The notes below the pieces were generated by a model that had not been told where the DNA came from, did no database searches, and saw nothing but the letters and a program-made list of their open reading frames with translations. Positions 165 through 43,591 of a stretch of DNA of 64,000 nt are shown here, one piece after another (position 1 is the stretch's first letter; every line of letters starts with the position of its first letter). The DNA is from Gemmatimonadales bacterium (GTDB lineage: Bacteria > Gemmatimonadota > Glassbacteria > GWA2-58-10). Position numbers and translations under genes: made by a program. The stretch is taken from positions 1 through 64,000 of the forward strand of contig JAJRTS010000110.1 in NCBI GenBank assembly GCA_024278175.1, in the 5' to 3' direction.

Positions 165-240
165 TTTTTATAATTGTCAGGAATATATAATTACCGTCTG
201 AAAATTCTCTCCTATAGATATCGCGGTCCAGGCAAAATGG

Positions 241-1245
241 TTAATTGCACTGCCGGTGAACCTCGTCGGCTATCATACGCAGGTTTTGCCACGGGGCGTC
301 AAGCGGCACGGCGCACTCGGGGCCGATGATGTCAATATTACTTGCCAGCTTTTCCCGCACGTCGGCGGTTATCAACGCGGGCGTGCCGTCTCTGACCACC
401 GCCAGATTGCTGGTGCCACCCATCAGAGCCAGTCCGTCTCCCGCCAGGGTGCGGGCCTTGGACGCGGGTACTATGGAATCGTAATGAAAGCATTCGATAC
501 CGGTGCTCCTGATATAGGATATACGATCAGACGTATCTCCGCAAATGTGAAGCAGCAGCGGGCAGTCCAGGCTCAGGCGCAGTTGCCGGTGTATCCCGGC
601 CAGAAAATCCCGGTAGGTTTCCGGAGAACAAAGGTCCCTGGTACAGTGATCGGCCAGGGTCAGGGCATCGGCCCCGGCTGCCAGTTGGGCCCTGCCGAAG
701 CGGATTGTTATCTCCATCAGGCTGTGCAGGGCCTTTTTTACTGCACTGGGCTGCTCCACGCTGGCGATCAGAAAATTCTCGATACCGTAGATGTGATAGG
801 CCAGGGTCCAGGGGCCGAACACCTTGCCCACCACCGCCACTTCATCCCCGAAAGTTTTTTTCAAGATAGCCAGGGCTTCGAGCGGCACGGCGCAGGCTTC
901 ATTTTTAAGGAAATCAAGGGGAACAACCAGGGGATCGGCAATGGTGGGGCAGAGGACACCGCTGACCGTGGGCATAAGGTTTTTGGCGCCCCAGTCCACC
1001 CGGCAGCCCAGGGCCGCCGATTCGTGCACGACGCTGAAGAGCGGCATGACGTTGTCGTAACCCAGCACCGTATGGCCGGCCCCTGCCAGGCGGGCCATCT
1101 TTTCGGCATCCAGGTGGGCTTGGGGAAAGCAGGCGCCCAATTTGTCCATCAGGCCGACGGTGACGATTGAGGTGGCACTGCCCACGGCCGGGCGCGGAGT
1201 CCGGCCACGTTTGAGCGCGCTCATGAATATCTCCCGTGGCTTCAC
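241..1245 (-). CDS. Uroporphyrinogen decarboxylase-family protein, MtaA/CmuA-type methyltransferase
   Basis: 334 aa, GTG start with GGAGAG eight bases upstream. The fold family includes HemE and the zinc methyltransferases MtaA, MtbA and CmuA, which move a methyl group between a corrinoid protein and a thiol. The zinc ligands of the methyltransferase branch are visible: His233 and Cys235 in LLLHICGDT, and Cys311 in GPECAVPLDAPWQNL. The segment GYDNVMPLFSVVHESAALGC near residue 62 is also typical of that branch, and the HemE active-site N-terminus is absent. No corrinoid protein or partner methyltransferase gene is nearby, so substrate and methyl acceptor are unknown. It stands alone, with a mobile repeat immediately upstream (1306-1520). 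Confidence 0.8.
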   Translation of the reverse strand: MKPREIFMSALKRGRTPRPAVGSATSIVTVGLMDKLGACFPQAHLDAEKMARLAGAGHTVLGYDNVMPLFSVVHESAALGCRVDWGAKNLMPTVSGVLCPTIADPLVVPLDFLKNEACAVPLEALAILKKTFGDEVAVVGKVFGPWTLAYHIYGIENFLIASVEQPSAVKKALHSLMEITIRFGRAQLAAGADALTLADHCTRDLCSPETYRDFLAGIHRQLRLSLDCPLLLHICGDTSDRISYIRSTGIECFHYDSIVPASKARTLAGDGLALMGGTSNLAVVRDGTPALITADVREKLASNIDIIGPECAVPLDAPWQNLRMIADEVHRQCN

Positions 1246-1305
1246 AGGAATTCTCTCCGGGGAGCGGTTGCAGACAGGAGTTCTGCTGCTGATTAATCCA
1301 ATGGC

Positions 1306-1520
1306 CTAGCAGCGTGTTGAAATATCCGAAAGTACGGGCATATGGTTGTCAAGGGCCGTTTCTCGCCATGCCGGCTCAAAACGGTTATAGAGATGCAACT
1401 GCTGATATATCATAAGTAACAGGACCGGCAAAAGAAACGGCTTGTCTTGCCCTCGATAACTTGCCCGGGCGAAATAGTTTATTCAAGGGCGTTGAATGCT
1501 TTATTTCAGCGCCCATCTAG
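1306..1520 (+). mobile_element. CTAG-ended miniature element, copy A (family 1)
   Basis: About 215 bp bounded by CTAG at 1306-1309 and at 1517-1520. The left end reads CTAGCAGCGTGTTGAAATA and the right end, on the other strand, reads CTAGATGGGCGCTGAAATA. The interior carries the stretch GTAACAGGACCGGCAAAAG and a terminal hairpin built on GGGCGTTGAA. Copy B (33486-33704, opposite strand) matches along its whole length; copy C (38529-38657) lacks the middle. The right CTAG contains the TAG stop of the lactate permease gene. There is no coding potential, so transposition would have to be in trans. CTAG fits the YTAR target preference of many IS5-type elements. Confidence 0.75.
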
Positions 1521-3181
1521 AGCTTGATTCCGAAACCGATAGCGATCAGGATAAAACCCAGCGCTGCCGCCATGATCAGATAATAGGCCAGGGGGATGAG
1601 CGTTTTGCGGATAATCTCTCCCTCCCTGTCCATCAGGCCCACCACGGCTGCGGCGGCCACCACGTTGTGCACGGTGATCATGTTGCCCGCGGCTCCGCCT
1701 ACCGCCTGCAGCGCCACGATTACCGACTGAGACACGCCGATCCTGGTGGCTACCCCGTACTGAAACAGGGCGAACATCATATTGCTGATCGTGTTGCTGC
1801 CGGCGATAAATGCTCCCAGGGCTCCAATAACGGCGGCAAAACCCGTCCAGGTGTTCCCGGCCAGGTCGGCTACTCCGGCGGCCAGTTCCATGGGCATGCT
1901 CTCCAGGCCGCTGGTGTTGACGCCCGAGTTGATGAACACTCTGACCATGGGGATGGCAAATCCCAGGGCGAAAGCTGCTTTTACCGATGTCCTGGCGGCT
2001 GTGACGGTAGCACGCCCCAGTTCACCCGGCCGCATCTTCTGGATAAAAAAGGTGCATAACACGGCCAGGACAAAAATAAAACCGGGCAGATAGAGCGGCT
2101 GGACAGCGGCGCTGATGCCGGTGCCCAGGATATTCTCCAGCCGGATCGTCCAAGCCGTGAGGATGAATTTGAAGACCGGCACTGTGCGGCTGAGTACCAG
2201 GAACAGGCCCACCAGCACATATGGGATCCAGGCCTTGAACATGGTCATCCCGGGTCGCTCCTGGCCCACCTCGACACTATAAGTGCCCGACCACTCCGGC
2301 TCCCACTGCTCTTTTTCGGCAAAATCCCACGGTTCCCTGGGGGTCAGAAAATTGTTTTTGGCGGCAATTACGATGATCCCCAGGCCGATCAGTCCCCCCA
2401 CCAGCGAGGGGAACTCCGGGCCCAGGAAGTAAGCCAGCAGCACATAGGGCACGCACAGGGCCAGCCCGGCAAGAATGGCGAACGGGGCTGCTTCCAACCC
2501 CTTGGCAATGGATTTCTCTTTGCCGAAAAAGCGTGTTAGTGTCACCGAGAGAAACAGAGGGATCAGCACTCCAATGATCCCGTGCATAATTGCCACGTTC
2601 CAGCCGATCGCCTTGACGTAATCCATGTACGGCATTCCGACACTGGCCAGGGCTTCTTTCACAACCGGGTTATCCAGGCCCGTGTGCACTCCCAGCAGGA
2701 TAGGGGTACCGGCGCCGCCAAAAGACACCGGAGTACTCTGGATGATCAGCGCCATGGTCACCGCGGCCATGGCCGGAAACCCGAGGGCCATCAGCAGGGG
2801 AGCGGCCACGGCTGCCGGAGTGCCGAAACCGGCGGCCCCTTCGATAAATGCGCCGAACATCCAGGCGACGATCATGGCCTGGACCCGCCTGTCCGGTGAT
2901 ATGTTGATGAATCCCCGGCGAATGGTGTTCACCGCGCCGCTGTTGATCAGCGCGTTGAGCATCAGTAGCGCACCGAAAATGATCCATAGTATCGAGGCCG
3001 TAACCACCAGTCCCTGAATGATCGACGCCACCACTAGCTTACCGGACACTCCCCAGACCGCCATCGCCAGTATCGACGTGACCGCCAGGGCCAGCGGCAT
3101 CGTCTTTTTCGCGGGCAGACGGAAAACCACCAGGAATACGAATACGGTAACTATAGGAGTCAGGGCCAGTAGCGGGTACAA
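1517..3181 (-). CDS. lldP: L-lactate permease family transporter
   Basis: 554 aa polytopic inner-membrane protein of the LctP/LldP family (lactate or glycolate:proton symport). Roughly a dozen hydrophobic helices run end to end, with family stretches such as [20 protein letters not shown] (about residue 108) and [14 protein letters not shown] near residue 462. The frame starts at TTG with AAAGGA nine bases upstream; a nearby ATG is out of frame. No lactate dehydrogenase or lld regulator is adjacent, so the substrate rests on family only. The gene ends TAG, and that TAG lies inside the CTAG end of mobile element copy A. A perfect palindrome (3238-3267) sits 57 bases upstream of the start. Confidence 0.9.
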
Positions 3182-3237
3182 GCGGTCATCCTTTGTGGAA
3201 ACCGGTGATTGTTCTGCCGAAGATCAACTGAGATTGA

Positions 3238-3267
3238 GTTTCCTGTTCCGGTAACGGAACAGGAAAC
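3238..3267. promoter_or_regulatory. Perfect 13-bp inverted repeat upstream of lldP
   Basis: GTTTCCTGTTCCG and its exact reverse complement are separated by a 4-base loop (GTAA). It lies 57-86 bases before the lldP start, in its leader or promoter. There is no T-run on either side, so it is not an obvious terminator. It could be an operator for a dimeric regulator or a leader hairpin; it does not resemble the known AATTGGT-type LldR site. Confidence 0.5.
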
Positions 3268-3711
3268 ATACTGCCGGTTCCGTCATAATTCAAAAGGTAT
3301 CGCTCCCGCGGCAATTGCCACCTGCCGGTGATACAGTTGTTCTCTACTGGGAACAGATACTCTTTTCAACATTCCTTTCTCCCAAAAGTTCATCCCGATG
3401 ATGCCATAACCATGGCCCAGCGGCCAGGCGCAGACTGACAACCTTCGTTCGGATCAACGCGGTTACTAAACCCCACTTTTTCCCAAAGATGACAATCGCG
3501 GACAATGTTTCGCACGAACTGCTCAATTCTTCTGGATATTCCAGGCCGATTTGATCTGTTTTCAAGTCAGGAAGGCAGGTCGGCAAACGATGAGGTCCGA
3601 GCGCAGCCGTTCCCGCTTTACAAACGAAACGATCCTGAGCGATCCCTGACGATACGTCAGGCCAATGAACCGTCCATTCGCCCACCCGTTTCAGTGGAAT
3701 TTCAACGCAAA
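3268..3711. other. Non-coding stretch with no recognisable gene
   Basis: About 440 bases between the lldP leader palindrome and the GTGGACA repeats. Short open frames exist on both strands but none has a ribosome-binding site, a recognisable motif or a consistent codon pattern. It is less GC-rich than the neighbouring genes. It may be decayed foreign DNA on the inner side of the putative attachment site at 3849-3867. Confidence 0.5.
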
Positions 3712-3769
3712 GTGGACAATCGTGGACAAATGTGGACAGGGTGTCTAGAGGGTGCTAAATGTGGACAAT
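3712..3769 (+). repeat. Four direct copies of GTGGACA (possible integrase arm sites)
   Basis: GTGGACAAT, GTGGACAAA, GTGGACAGG and GTGGACAAT begin at 3712, 3722, 3732 and 3761; the first three are exactly ten bases apart, one helical turn. They lie 80-137 bases from the tRNA-Ser 3'-end fragment. Helically phased short direct repeats beside a tRNA-end core are typical arm-type binding sites of tyrosine recombinases. IS21-type elements also carry repeated TGTCCAC motifs at their ends and are the main alternative. Confidence 0.45.
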
Positions 3770-3848
3770 TGAAGGGCGCTGTCATGGAAGCTGAAATTTT
3801 ATATATTTACTGGTTAATCACTTAGAGAAGCTACGAGAATGAATATAT

Positions 3849-3867
3849 AATCCCTGCCTCTCCGCCA
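3849..3867 (+). other. tRNA-Ser 3'-end fragment, possible attachment-site core
   Basis: AATCCCTGCCTCTCCGCCA matches the end of a tRNA-Ser gene: end of T-loop, T-stem CCCTG, acceptor strand CCTCTCC, discriminator G and CCA. The bases before it do not form the expected CAGGG T-stem strand, and no GGAGAGG acceptor partner occurs about 90 bases upstream, so this is not a complete tRNA gene. A hairpin terminator follows nine bases later, as after a real tRNA. This is the usual signature of a right junction left by an element that integrated into a tRNA 3' end. Confidence 0.5.
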
Positions 3868-3876
3868 TAAATAGTT

Positions 3877-3916
3877 AAGGCCCTAATTATCAAAGAGTTA
3901 GGGCCTTCGTTTTTTT
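3877..3916 (+). terminator. Rho-independent terminator after the tRNA fragment
   Basis: The stem AAGGCCCTAA / TTAGGGCCTT with a short AT-rich loop is followed by CGTTTTTTT. It directly follows the tRNA-Ser fragment, fitting the original terminator of that tRNA gene. Confidence 0.85.
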
Positions 3917-4105
3917 AGCGTTTTACAGGCGAACCCGCATAATAGCTTTTGGCAATTGCAGTTTCAAATTCGCCCTTGGCCCATGAAGGTTATAAATCCC
4001 GCACTGACTGCGTGATGATCAGCCACGGACGTTATTCAATTGTATTCGAGCTGGCGGAATTCGCCGATGGTGAGAATGGCGTTGATTAAGCTGCCTCATA
4101 AAAAA

Positions 4106-4573
4106 TCACCCCTTCAGCTCCGCCAGTTTCTCACGCACCACCTCGGCGTGGCCTTTGGCTTTTACGTTCGGCCAAGCGTGGGCAATTTTACCCTCGGGGT
4201 CAATCAGGAACGTGCTGCGCTGCACGCCCATGTACTCGCGGCCATAGTTTTTTTTGAGCTTCCAGGCCCCGAAGGCCTCCAGCGCCTCGTGCCCCGGATC
4301 GGAGAGCAGCAGGAGGTCAAGACCCTGCTTGCCGATAAAATTGCGATGGCTGCTGGTGCTGTCCGGGCTGACCCCCACAACGATTGCGTTCAGCTCCGTA
4401 AACTCGTTCTTCCGGGCTGTGAAGTCGCAGGCCTCAGTGGTGCAGCCGGGAGTGTTGTCCCTGGGATAAAAATAGAACACAACCCAGTTACCCGGCAGGT
4501 TTTCCAGTGTAACCTCGTTGTCATTCTGGTCTTTCAACGTAAATCCGGGAGCCTTGTCTCCAGCCTTGAGCAT
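4106..4573 (-). CDS. bcp: Thioredoxin-dependent peroxiredoxin, Bcp/PrxQ type
   Basis: 155 aa, the usual length for PrxQ. It reduces H2O2 and organic hydroperoxides in the cytoplasm using thioredoxin. The motif TPGCTTEACDF carries the peroxidatic Cys44 and, five residues on, Cys49, the resolving cysteine of the atypical 2-Cys subgroup. The start MLKAGDK is chosen because GGAGG lies eight bases upstream; the open frame extends seven codons further without a better site. Ferritin and a Fur/PerR regulator lie just upstream on the same strand, suggesting a shared peroxide and iron defence role, but a terminator at 4781-4822 separates it from ferritin. Confidence 0.93.
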   Translation of the reverse strand: MLKAGDKAPGFTLKDQNDNEVTLENLPGNWVVFYFYPRDNTPGCTTEACDFTARKNEFTELNAIVVGVSPDSTSSHRNFIGKQGLDLLLLSDPGHEALEAFGAWKLKKNYGREYMGVQRSTFLIDPEGKIAHAWPNVKAKGHAEVVREKLAELKG

Positions 4574-4780
4574 CGTCTGTTCCTCCATAGACACCGTACG
4601 CAGTTAAGAGAGGGGGGGCTTCGCGGCACCAACCCCGGTTATCTCCAGCAATTCCCGTCCCGCAATACTCCTGCCCATCCACACCCTGTTCGAGCGACAT
4701 TTATTACGACAGAGCGGGTGTTGATCCCATGCGACAACAAACACAACCCTTGAGGCGAAAGCGCGCCTGGACGGAACCGG

Positions 4781-4822
4781 AAAAAAAGAGACGTCCCTCG
4801 CCACGGGAGAGGCGAGGGACGC
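4781..4822 (-). terminator. Rho-independent terminator of ferritin
   Basis: On the minus strand the stem GTCCCTCGCC pairs with GGCGAGGGAC and is followed by GTCTCTTTTTTT. It begins 29 bases after the ferritin stop codon. Confidence 0.85.
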
Positions 4823-4850
4823 ACGTGCTGCCGGTAAAACAGTTGTCTGC

Positions 4851-5357
4851 TCAGGCGACTTCGGGGCTGGCCGAGCGTCCCGCCATTTCCTTATCCAACA
4901 TGTAGATTCCGCCCGGATGGCCCTCGATCATTTTCAGTGTCTCGACCACGCCCAGGACGTTGGCCTCTTCCTCCACCTGCTCGGTGACAAACCAGTTGAG
5001 CAGCACACGGGTAGCGTTGTCATTGTCGCTGTCGGCCAGTGCGCAGAGGTCGTTGATCCGGCCAGTGATTTTCTGCTCGTGCTTGTATGTGTCCTGGAAC
5101 ACCGCCAGGGGCGATTTCCACGACTTCTGCGGAGCGGGCAGCGCCCTCAGCTCGACCTCGCCGCCACGGTCGTGGATATAGCCGTAGATTTTCATTACGT
5201 GGTCCATTTCCTCCTGGGCCTGCAGGCTCATCCAACTGGCGAACCCGTTCAGATTCTGCGCCTTGAACCAACTGGACATCGAGAAATAAATGTACGCACT
5301 TGACATCTCGGCCTGCATCTGGTCGTTAAGGGCTTTCTGCAACTTTTTACTCAACAT
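4851..5357 (-). CDS. ftn: Ferritin (non-heme, iron-storage)
   Basis: 168 aa, close to bacterial FtnA length. It forms a 24-subunit shell that oxidises Fe(II) and stores it as ferric mineral. Ferroxidase-centre residues are recognisable: Glu17 in DQMQAEM, Glu50 and His53 in QEEMDHV, Glu94 in TYKHEQ, and the helix-D stretch TEQVEEEANV. No heme-binding Met of bacterioferritin is seen. The start MLSKKLQKAL has GGAGAGGA upstream; the longer open frame upstream lies in the promoter. A good sigma70-like promoter (5424-5452) gives a leader of about 60 bases. A Fur/PerR-family gene lies upstream on the same strand. Confidence 0.93.
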   Translation of the reverse strand: MLSKKLQKALNDQMQAEMSSAYIYFSMSSWFKAQNLNGFASWMSLQAQEEMDHVMKIYGYIHDRGGEVELRALPAPQKSWKSPLAVFQDTYKHEQKITGRINDLCALADSDNDNATRVLLNWFVTEQVEEEANVLGVVETLKMIEGHPGGIYMLDKEMAGRSASPEVA

Positions 5358-8620: not shown

Positions 8621-9424
8621 TTATCTGCGGCCGAGAAAGCTCAATGCGCAAGTACTGTCTGCCACCAGGGCGTAACCGTTCCCCCCTTCGGACCAGACAA
8701 TCACGTCGAAGTTCTTGTCCTTATCCTTAGCCGACGGACAATTTAATTTCGAACCGTGGACAACCTCCTTGTCGACATTTTCCGGCAGGCCGAAATCCCG
8801 GCTGCGGAATTGAATAATGGCGCAACGTGACTGCTGCCGCGCCTGGGAAACCCAGCGGCTATAAACAGCCGGATAGACGCCCAGCGAACCGCTGCGTCCG
8901 CCGATCAGGCTGAGTCCCGACTGGACGGGCGGCATCTTGACCGGGAACGGTACCGAACCATCCAGGTGACGGGCCATGTAGTCAGGGTCCAGCGTAATTA
9001 CGCTGATATCCTGGTCGTTGACGTAACGGGCCAGGGCCAACTCGGCCACCCGGGCAATTTTCTTGCTGGCAGCCGACTGCTCGCGAACGTAAAACATGCC
9101 GCCGCCGAGCCCCAGCAGCAACACAACCGTAGCGGCCACGCGCAGCAGCGGCGAGGCGATTATTTTACCCAGCCGGCGCTCACCTGTGGACGACGGTATC
9201 CGCAGGAGTGTGTCGGAGAGAGCGGCCGGCAGCTCCACTTTGATCAACTCCAGCCGTATCCGCTCGTTTTCCTCCAGCAGGCTCAGCCACTCATCGCGCG
9301 CCCAGCTTTCTCCTGCGGCCAGCTCGGCCTCCAGTTCACTGCGCATCGTATCGCCGGGAGGCAACAGCGAGACCTCCAGCATCCGCAGGCGAAGAATCTC
9401 TTTAGGGTCGTTGCGCATGTTCAT
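8621..9424 (-). CDS. Putative membrane-anchored anti-sigma factor
   Basis: 267 aa. The N-terminal part (about 1-85) is acidic and helical; one membrane segment, LLRVAATVVLLLGLGGGMFYV, lies at about residues 90-112; the rest is predicted outside the cytoplasm. This layout and the position downstream of an ECF sigma gene on the same strand are typical of anti-sigma factors. No zinc-binding HxxxCxxC motif is seen, so it is not the classical ZAS type. The extracytoplasmic part (SLGVYPAVYSRWVSQ, ENVDKEVVHGS) matches no domain I recognise. It is separated from the sigma gene by a 205-base spacer with direct repeats. Confidence 0.6.
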   Translation of the reverse strand: MNMRNDPKEILRLRMLEVSLLPPGDTMRSELEAELAAGESWARDEWLSLLEENERIRLELIKVELPAALSDTLLRIPSSTGERRLGKIIASPLLRVAATVVLLLGLGGGMFYVREQSAASKKIARVAELALARYVNDQDISVITLDPDYMARHLDGSVPFPVKMPPVQSGLSLIGGRSGSLGVYPAVYSRWVSQARQQSRCAIIQFRSRDFGLPENVDKEVVHGSKLNCPSAKDKDKNFDVIVWSEGGNGYALVADSTCALSFLGRR

Positions 9425-33405: not shown

Positions 33406-33485
33406 TGAGAATGCCGGTGTGGACAATTGTTATTTTGCCGCCACATCCTTGTGGCGCTGAGAAGCGTGTTATTGCGGGTACGCTT

Positions 33486-33704
33486 CTAAAGGGGCGTTGA
33501 AATAAAGACATTCAACGCCCTATGGTGAAAAATTTCGTTTGTTCGGTTGTCAAGGGCAAGGCAAGCCGTTTCTTTTGCTGATCCTGTTACTTATGTTATA
33601 TCAAACCGTTGCGTCGCTCGAACTGTTTTGGACCGGCCTGGCTGGAAACGGCCCTTGACAACCTTCATTCCCATTCTTCGTATATTTCAACACGCTTCTT
33701 CTAA
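33486..33704 (-). mobile_element. CTAG-ended miniature element, copy B (family 1)
   Basis: About 215 bp, inverted relative to copy A and matching it along its whole length, including GTTGTCAAGGGCCGTTTC, GCAAAAGAAACGGCTTG and the GGGCGTTGAATG end hairpin. Both sides carry TTCTAA (33484-33489 and 33699-33704); on the minus strand TTAGAAG is repeated, a clear target duplication. The right-hand CTAA contains the TAG stop codon of the GH20 gene. No coding frame. Confidence 0.75.
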
Positions 33705-38528: not shown

Positions 38529-38657
38529 CTGAAAGCGGCTTGAAATAAAACGAATAGCATAACCGGTAAAAGAACGGCTTGTCTTGCCCTTGACAACCAA
38601 GCGAGCGAAATTTTTCATTCCATGGCGTTGAATGTCTTTATTCCAACGCCCCTCTAG
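38529..38657 (+). mobile_element. CTAG-ended miniature element, copy C, internally deleted (family 1)
   Basis: Left end AAGCGGCTTGAAATA (about 38533), right end ending CTAG at 38654-38657 after TTCCAACGCCCCT. It shares AGAACGGCTTGTCTTGCC and GGCGTTGAATGTCTTTATT with copies A and B but lacks about 90 bases of their middle. CTGA on the left and CTAG on the right are an imperfect target duplication. It lies in the divergent region between the DUF4832 lipoprotein and bacteriohemerythrin genes; the rest of that 360-base gap shows no gene. Confidence 0.65.
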
Positions 38658-43202: not shown

Positions 43203-43390
43203 GGTAGCCGGTCCGGTTTGAAGGTGGCGGGGGAATGTTGCTAAAATAATCTTTTATCGAGCAAGTTCGGGCGTGTCGCCAGACGTTGCCATCGTTCGGC
43301 CGCTGGATTCACGGGCGGACAGATGGGGTTCGCCCGTGCAGATCGCTACAAATACCGGATTGCCACGGCGGAAGAAAAAATAAACTGATT
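43203..43390. other. Upstream region of the sulfatase gene
   Basis: About 190 bases between the sulfatase start and the miniature element at 43391. No gene or repeat seen; the sulfatase promoter must lie here but no clear -35/-10 pair was found. Confidence 0.4.
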
Positions 43391-43591
43391 AAGACCTTTG
43401 ATTTAATCAAAGGATTGAAAGAATTGTCACTCCCCCACTCTTTTTCCAAAACTTCTTATCAAGGGGCATATCTTTCGGTCGGATCATGTAGTTACAATTG
43501 ACAAGCCTGAATTTTCTTTTGGTACACAAAAATGAGTGAACTGAAAAACTTCCCCCATCACAATTCAGTCGTCCAATTTTTCAGAGGTCTC
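43391..43591. mobile_element. About 200-bp GAGACC-ended miniature element (family 2)
   Basis: Left end AAGACCTTTGATTTAATC, right end TCGTCCAATTTTTCAGAGG then TCTC; read from the right it begins GAGACCTCTGAAAAATTGG, nearly the IS5-like end at 142-164. The left 79 bases match 26652-26781 in inverted orientation, minus the hairpin there. No coding frame. Remaining bases up to the RND gene stop (43592-43681) are GC-rich without recognised features. Confidence 0.65.

Follow-up and report, generated by a model that had tools for sequence, protein, structure and literature searches.

A lactate-use gene cluster between direct repeats of a tRNA-Ser 3' end: a probable integrase-free island in a Gemmatimonadales genome

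Known tRNA-borne systems and the lactate locus

Islands carried at tRNA genes are a well-known route of gene gain in bacteria. Small units headed by a tRNA end are also known: in the tandem repeats at tyrT of E. coli, the first 19 bp of a unit come from the tRNA-Tyr 3' end, and the units recur at a 178-bp step. In the Islander work (PMC4383910), tRNA- and tmRNA-borne islands have a regenerated tRNA and a displaced 3' fragment as endpoints and foreign cargo between them. The locus described here shares this arrangement; unlike those islands, it is without an integrase as assembled and is spread over two contigs. It also resembles the hitcher elements that rely on helpers, which have cargo between att sites and no recombinase of their own (PMC11389934); trans mobilization of the lactate island is, however, putative, and its integrase may simply have been lost.

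The window, that is the whole stretch of 64,000 nt that was analyzed, corresponds to C101:1-64000 of the genome G000, whose assembly consists of 113 contigs. The left end of the window contains, in this order, an IS end, an MtaA-like gene, a lactate permease gene, a GTGGACA array and a tRNA 3' end. The features are as follows.

1-137, + strand: 3' end of an IS5-like IS, with the transposase C-terminus at 2-133 (DDE_Tnp_1_2, E 5.4e-7)
120-137, - strand: IS terminal inverted repeat GAACTTATCCGTAAATAA
241-1245, - strand: URO-D/MtaA-like protein, cargo (Pfam URO-D, 6.5e-54; 91.6% amino acid identity to G001)
1517-3181, - strand: L-lactate permease, cargo (Pfam Lactate_perm, 1.4e-107; 95.1% amino acid identity to G001)
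3227-3848, no strand: probable right end of the island (P-arm region), beyond the last position (3226) with homology to the G001 cluster
3712-3767, + strand: four GTGGACA heptamers, putative arm-type or excisionase sites
3849-3869, + strand: probable attR core, displaced tRNA-Ser(CGA) 3' end; 21-bp direct repeat of C97:6363-6383(-)
3868-3937, + strand: terminator and decayed arm repeats, an old module of tRNA-Ser/Leu/Phe type
3959-3985, + strand: possible decayed tRNA-Phe-like 3' end, a weak and unscored reading of the sequence and alignment A1
4106-4594, - strand: bcp-type peroxiredoxin, first gene outside the island (AhpC-TSA, 4.2e-39; 79.5% amino acid identity to G001)

The best explanation of the locus as a whole, with a probability of about 0.83, is that window 3712-3869 is the attR of an island of ~10.2 kb whose integration took place at the 3' end of tRNA-Ser(CGA). 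The integrating enzyme would have been a tyrosine recombinase, crossing over within the tRNA-Ser 3' end. The island's own copy of that end would have restored the tRNA gene (attL, on C97), and the displaced tRNA end, with the older sequence behind it, would have become attR. The proposed cargo is a cluster for lactate use with larA, D-lactate dehydrogenase, class V aminotransferase, MtaA-like and lactate permease genes, which a later insertion of the IS5-like element would have split, breaking the assembly at that point.

Direct repeats, cargo and flanks

A preliminary description of this DNA had claimed a tRNA-Ser 3' end lacking the rest of the tRNA, and this stands: AATCCCTGCCTCTCCGCCA is the 19 bases at 3849-3867, and ARAGORN found no whole tRNA in the 64,000-nt window. 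The intact tRNA-Ser with the same 3' end, which it advised seeking in the genome, is present on another contig of G000 as tRNA-Ser(CGA) at C97:6365-6454. The exact match between the core and this locus is 21 bp (3849-3869), and the two copies share orientation once C97 is reversed. The endpoints are those of a tRNA-borne island, with an intact regenerated tRNA at one end (C97) and a displaced 3' fragment at the other (window). On C97, tRNA-Ser is followed downstream by larA and by genes for a fused D-lactate dehydrogenase/iron-sulfur protein and a class V aminotransferase, after which the contig ends. The preliminary description had also placed the permease, the MtaA-type gene and the IS on an element extending to the left of the window, in agreement with the continuation of the lactate cluster on C97 up to the intact tRNA-Ser. 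The ~10.2 kb from attL (C97) to attR (window) are regarded as the island; its assembled parts add up to 6383 + 3848 = 10,231 bp, to which the interior of the IS, unassembled, has to be added.

The IS transposase has its 5' end at the end of C97 and its 3' end at the left end of the window, with TTA on both flanks. The inverted repeat occurs at 18 places in G000 (17 beyond 120-137), many of them at contig ends, so that the IS alone is no proof of a C97-C101 join; the TTA flanks also fit several other IS-bearing contig ends, and the IS partner is not unique. The two contigs are probably joined through one IS, and most of the argument is carried by the gene order in G001, a genome of the same genus, where the permease, MtaA-like, aminotransferase, dehydrogenase and larA genes are contiguous on C11. 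A single uninterrupted stretch of 8.4 kb on that contig is accounted for by C97:312-6264 plus window 165-3226, at 91-96% nucleotide identity. An assembly artefact or a foreign contig might be suspected in a genome of 113 contigs in which the relevant join falls at an IS, but this is very improbable: the core, the terminator and bcp all lie within one 77.7-kb contig (C101), and the flank beyond bcp agrees with the synteny of G001 and G002.

In G001 the cluster is located at a different locus, near tRNA-Gln and not tRNA-Ser. Amino acid identity to G001 is 91.6% for the MtaA-like protein, 95.1% for the permease, 95.7% for the aminotransferase, 93.7% for the dehydrogenase and 93.2% for LarA. For ten other proteins, from bcp to PAPS reductase, it is 37.8-79.5% (some of these alignments being partial), and an eleventh comparison protein, thiC, had no match in the G001 stretches compared. 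Judging from the excess identity and the other locus in G001, the cargo has a history that differs from that of its flanks. A search of genome contigs for the permease yielded 77 loci with a best identity of 58% and no close relative, and literature on a genomic island at tRNA-Ser with lactate permease and racemase came down to a paper that has three of these four terms and deals, by title, with a Corynebacterium dehydrogenase.

The G001 cluster lies between direct repeats of ~186 bp that are 75% identical (L059 15310-15497 and L060 ~4395-4580). Movement of the cluster by insertion sequences or flanking repeats, and not by site-specific recombination, would be in keeping with these repeats and with the IS inside the cluster of G000; it is quite unlikely, as the IS of G000 lies within the cluster and does not flank it, and direct repeats of tRNA-Ser form the outer ends. 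The tRNA-Gln was considered as the att site of the G001 copy and rejected, no second Gln 3' end being present in C11:20000-60000. An integrase remnant beside this tRNA-Gln is not claimed either, because a 66-aa reading that appears integrase-like by eye matched in Pfam only DUF1031, at 0.051.

Short repeats of a dispersed family occupy two intergenic gaps of the lactate cluster in G000 (window 1285-1516 and C97 (L012) 4631-4826), are absent from the corresponding gaps in G001, and occur further at window 33484-33700 and 38545-38657 and at C97 7491-7713. The insert in a third gap (C97 1473-1696) matches no repeat of this family. Beside the IS, a stretch of 176 bp at C97 (L012) 137-312 is 88% identical to window 43389-43568 and absent from the G001 lactate cluster.

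On the outer side of the core, bcp of G001 and G002 stands beside transglutaminase-like, beta-helix and PAPS reductase genes (named by eye), which in G000 are on C103, with no bcp in the stretch read. In both relatives bcp thus has other neighbors than in G000; synteny is broken at the site, and the unchanged synteny across 3849 that would have spoken against an integration was not found in these relatives. The stretches compared around bcp in G001 and G002 contain no tRNA-Ser. In G001 and G005, tRNA-Ser is directly followed by a module of the type described below and has no lactate cluster behind it, as would be expected of the locus before integration, but bcp does not come next in these genomes; as no relative has tRNA-Ser beside bcp, no true empty site was seen.

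The integrase that the preliminary description expected next to tRNA-Ser is absent both there and from the assembled island. Ten PF00589 matches were obtained in G000, none of them on C97 or C101, and the ORFs of C97:1-12000 and of the window gave no match at E 1 with an integrase HMM built for this analysis; these searches cover the assembled part of the island, the IS interior being unassembled. An autonomous tyrosine-recombinase element has its own integrase gene, and the assembled island has none. The preliminary reading of an island at tRNA-Ser largely holds. The island would therefore now be fixed or mobilizable only in trans. Of the 10 integrase-like ORFs examined in G000, seven have a tRNA 3'-end signature at a distance of 42-125 bp, from which tRNA-borne elements appear to be common in this genome. 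At another integrase (L121 4230-5514), the open frame is followed, 75 bp on, by an att-like tRNA-Ser 3' end, and the ORFs adjoining this integrase on its contig look like replication genes by eye.

The GTGGACA array and its viral counterparts

Four GTGGACA repeats had been described on the inner side of the core, three of them at ten-base spacing, and they are found as described, at 3712, 3722 and 3732 (exact 10-bp steps) and at 3761, all on the + strand. The window contains 20 copies on both strands, where 6.1 are expected and none of 100 shuffles gave more than 12, and four copies inside 56 bp are far beyond chance. G000 has four GTGGACA pairs at most 40 bp apart, three of these in the array, and no second site with two copies at a 10-bp step was found in G000 or 60 relatives (1/61 genomes). 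The two short ORFs at 3344-3685 and 3505-3825 had no Pfam or PHROG match, a comparison of 3227-3990 with phage and plasmid records gave no relatives, and Rfam gave only two matches on 3000-5000, both sub-threshold. Literature joining GTGGACA, integrase and attP consisted only of fly work, unrelated by title.

Similar arrays exist in viral contigs. Three GTGGACA copies at the same phase were present in 31 viral stretches, as against 7 for the reversed motif, which served as a small control of seven loci only. A tRNA T-arm signature is present no more than 200 bp from the viral array in 9 of 31 cases (1.19 expected) and from the control pattern in 0 of 7 (0.39 expected); an integrase-like ORF lies within 1.5 kb of 8 of the 31, four of them at 152-157 bp, and of none of the 7 controls. 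The integrase HMM was built from 10 ORFs, which were all that 23 loci yielded. The 31 loci are not independent, since L214, L218, L220, L224, L228, L229 and L233 are near copies by eye, as are L221, L237 and L238 of each other. The former group, nearly identical, has several GTGGACA copies, and no integrase or tRNA signature was found near its arrays. In several viral contigs, the tRNA 3' part is followed by a terminator and then by the array. The orientation of the array relative to the tRNA is left out of the evidence because it differs between the viral contigs and the window. By analogy, the viral arrays support an attachment-site role without telling integrase arm sites from excisionase sites, and the GTGGACA heptamers are putative sites of one of these two types for a tyrosine recombinase.

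In a lambda-like element, arm sites are expected on both arms. On the attL side (C97:6000-6364), neither GTGGACA nor TGTCCAC was found, even with one mismatch allowed, so that the array is on the right arm only; the view of the heptamers as arm sites thus keeps its analogy with viral contigs but lacks such sites at attL. The repeats may instead be sites of an excisionase (directionality factor), with a helical phasing that comes from a winged-helix filament. This reading is possible but doubtful; it concerns the repeats only and fits alongside an island at tRNA-Ser. The presence of the array on one arm agrees with it, and the one-turn spacing suits filament-forming winged-helix proteins. The position of the array in six viral contigs (L211, L215, L221, L232, L237 and L238), just past the tRNA terminator at ~104-107 bp from the T-arm, argues for integrase arm sites, of which such a place is typical. 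For comparison, BldC is described as having one DNA turn per bound molecule (PMC11963761).

Modules behind tRNA-Ser, -Leu and -Phe genes

The sequence to the right of 3868 is, from its similarity to other copies, a decayed example of a family-wide module with a tRNA 3' end, a terminator and GGGTGCC repeats. Model R1, trained on eight modules with the window and C97 copies left out, assigns 45.1 bits to window 3849-3937 (E 3.7e-8 per genome) and 62.9 bits to C97:6299-6383, and only 13.3-16.4 bits to the tRNA-Ser loci of G002, G003 and G004, which have the same tRNA end. The tRNA-style terminator suggested earlier is present as a hairpin and T-run at about 3876-3916, but it belongs to this decayed module and is no plain native terminator. 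The module family stands behind tRNA-Ser, -Leu and -Phe genes, and R1 matches occur in all six family genomes, with at least nine at E < 1e-5 beyond the eight training copies (150 candidates were scored per genome of 241-310 found, and the palindromic hairpin also yields opposite-strand matches). Among the nine matches listed, six have an intact tRNA-Leu, -Phe or -Ser gene, in whose 3' end they begin; another follows tRNA-Phe as the second copy in tandem, and the remaining two, the window copy and one on G004 C13, are without an intact tRNA.

Stacked modules occur on C61 of G000 (L013 8067-8650), where the units behind tRNA-Leu are headed in turn by Phe-like, Phe-like, Ser and Phe-like 3' ends at steps of 134, 112 and 124 bp, the last end being at 8647; each modelled unit has a terminator and GGGTGCC-type repeats. 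The possible Phe-like end at window 3959-3985 has the spacing seen in modules of G001, G005 and C61. The C61 units resemble the E. coli tyrT repeats in being tandem and headed by a tRNA 3' end, and differ from them in having the 3' ends of different tRNAs, integrase-arm-like GGGTGCC pairs and 112-134-bp steps. On G004 C72, the module behind tRNA-Leu has an integrase-like open stretch as its neighbor (E 6.5e-9 with the integrase HMM built for this analysis), with a weaker copy of marginal score (24.5 bits) 8.4 kb further on the same strand. In G002, the distances to second copies are 2.8 kb, 162 bp and 16.0 kb, and these copies score 32.1, 28.4 and 25.2 bits, respectively, the weaker scores being marginal. 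Pairs of AGGGTGCC are present also in G039, G051 and G057.

Such modules allow another reading of the window, in which its tRNA end is a scattered or stacked scar module and the lactate cluster came to lie between the two copies by coincidence or rearrangement, having never integrated at tRNA-Ser. The occurrence of R1 matches in all six family genomes, the tandem at C61, the modular nature of the window's right half and an attL without GTGGACA are compatible with it. It is nevertheless unlikely, because the stretch in common with the G001 cluster comes to within ~120 bp of one copy and 623 bp of the other, in matching orientation, and the excess identity is limited, among the genes compared, to the five between the copies. 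The modules common to three tRNA genes might be the part of the locus that holds something new. Speculatively, and with considerable doubt, they may be minimal mobile units (a tRNA-Ser, -Leu or -Phe 3' end, an own terminator and paired GGGTGCC arms, with 112-134-bp steps where stacked) that are served in trans by a few integrases, stack behind tRNAs and move integrase-free catabolic islands between lineages.

Overall, the locus points to tRNA-borne movement, inside a single bacterial family, of an island for lactate use (transport, racemase and dehydrogenase), and its exact endpoints are now available for an excision test. Searches that begin from integrases would miss such integrase-free islands, and the modules behind three tRNA genes may serve as a marker for further cargo islands of this kind.
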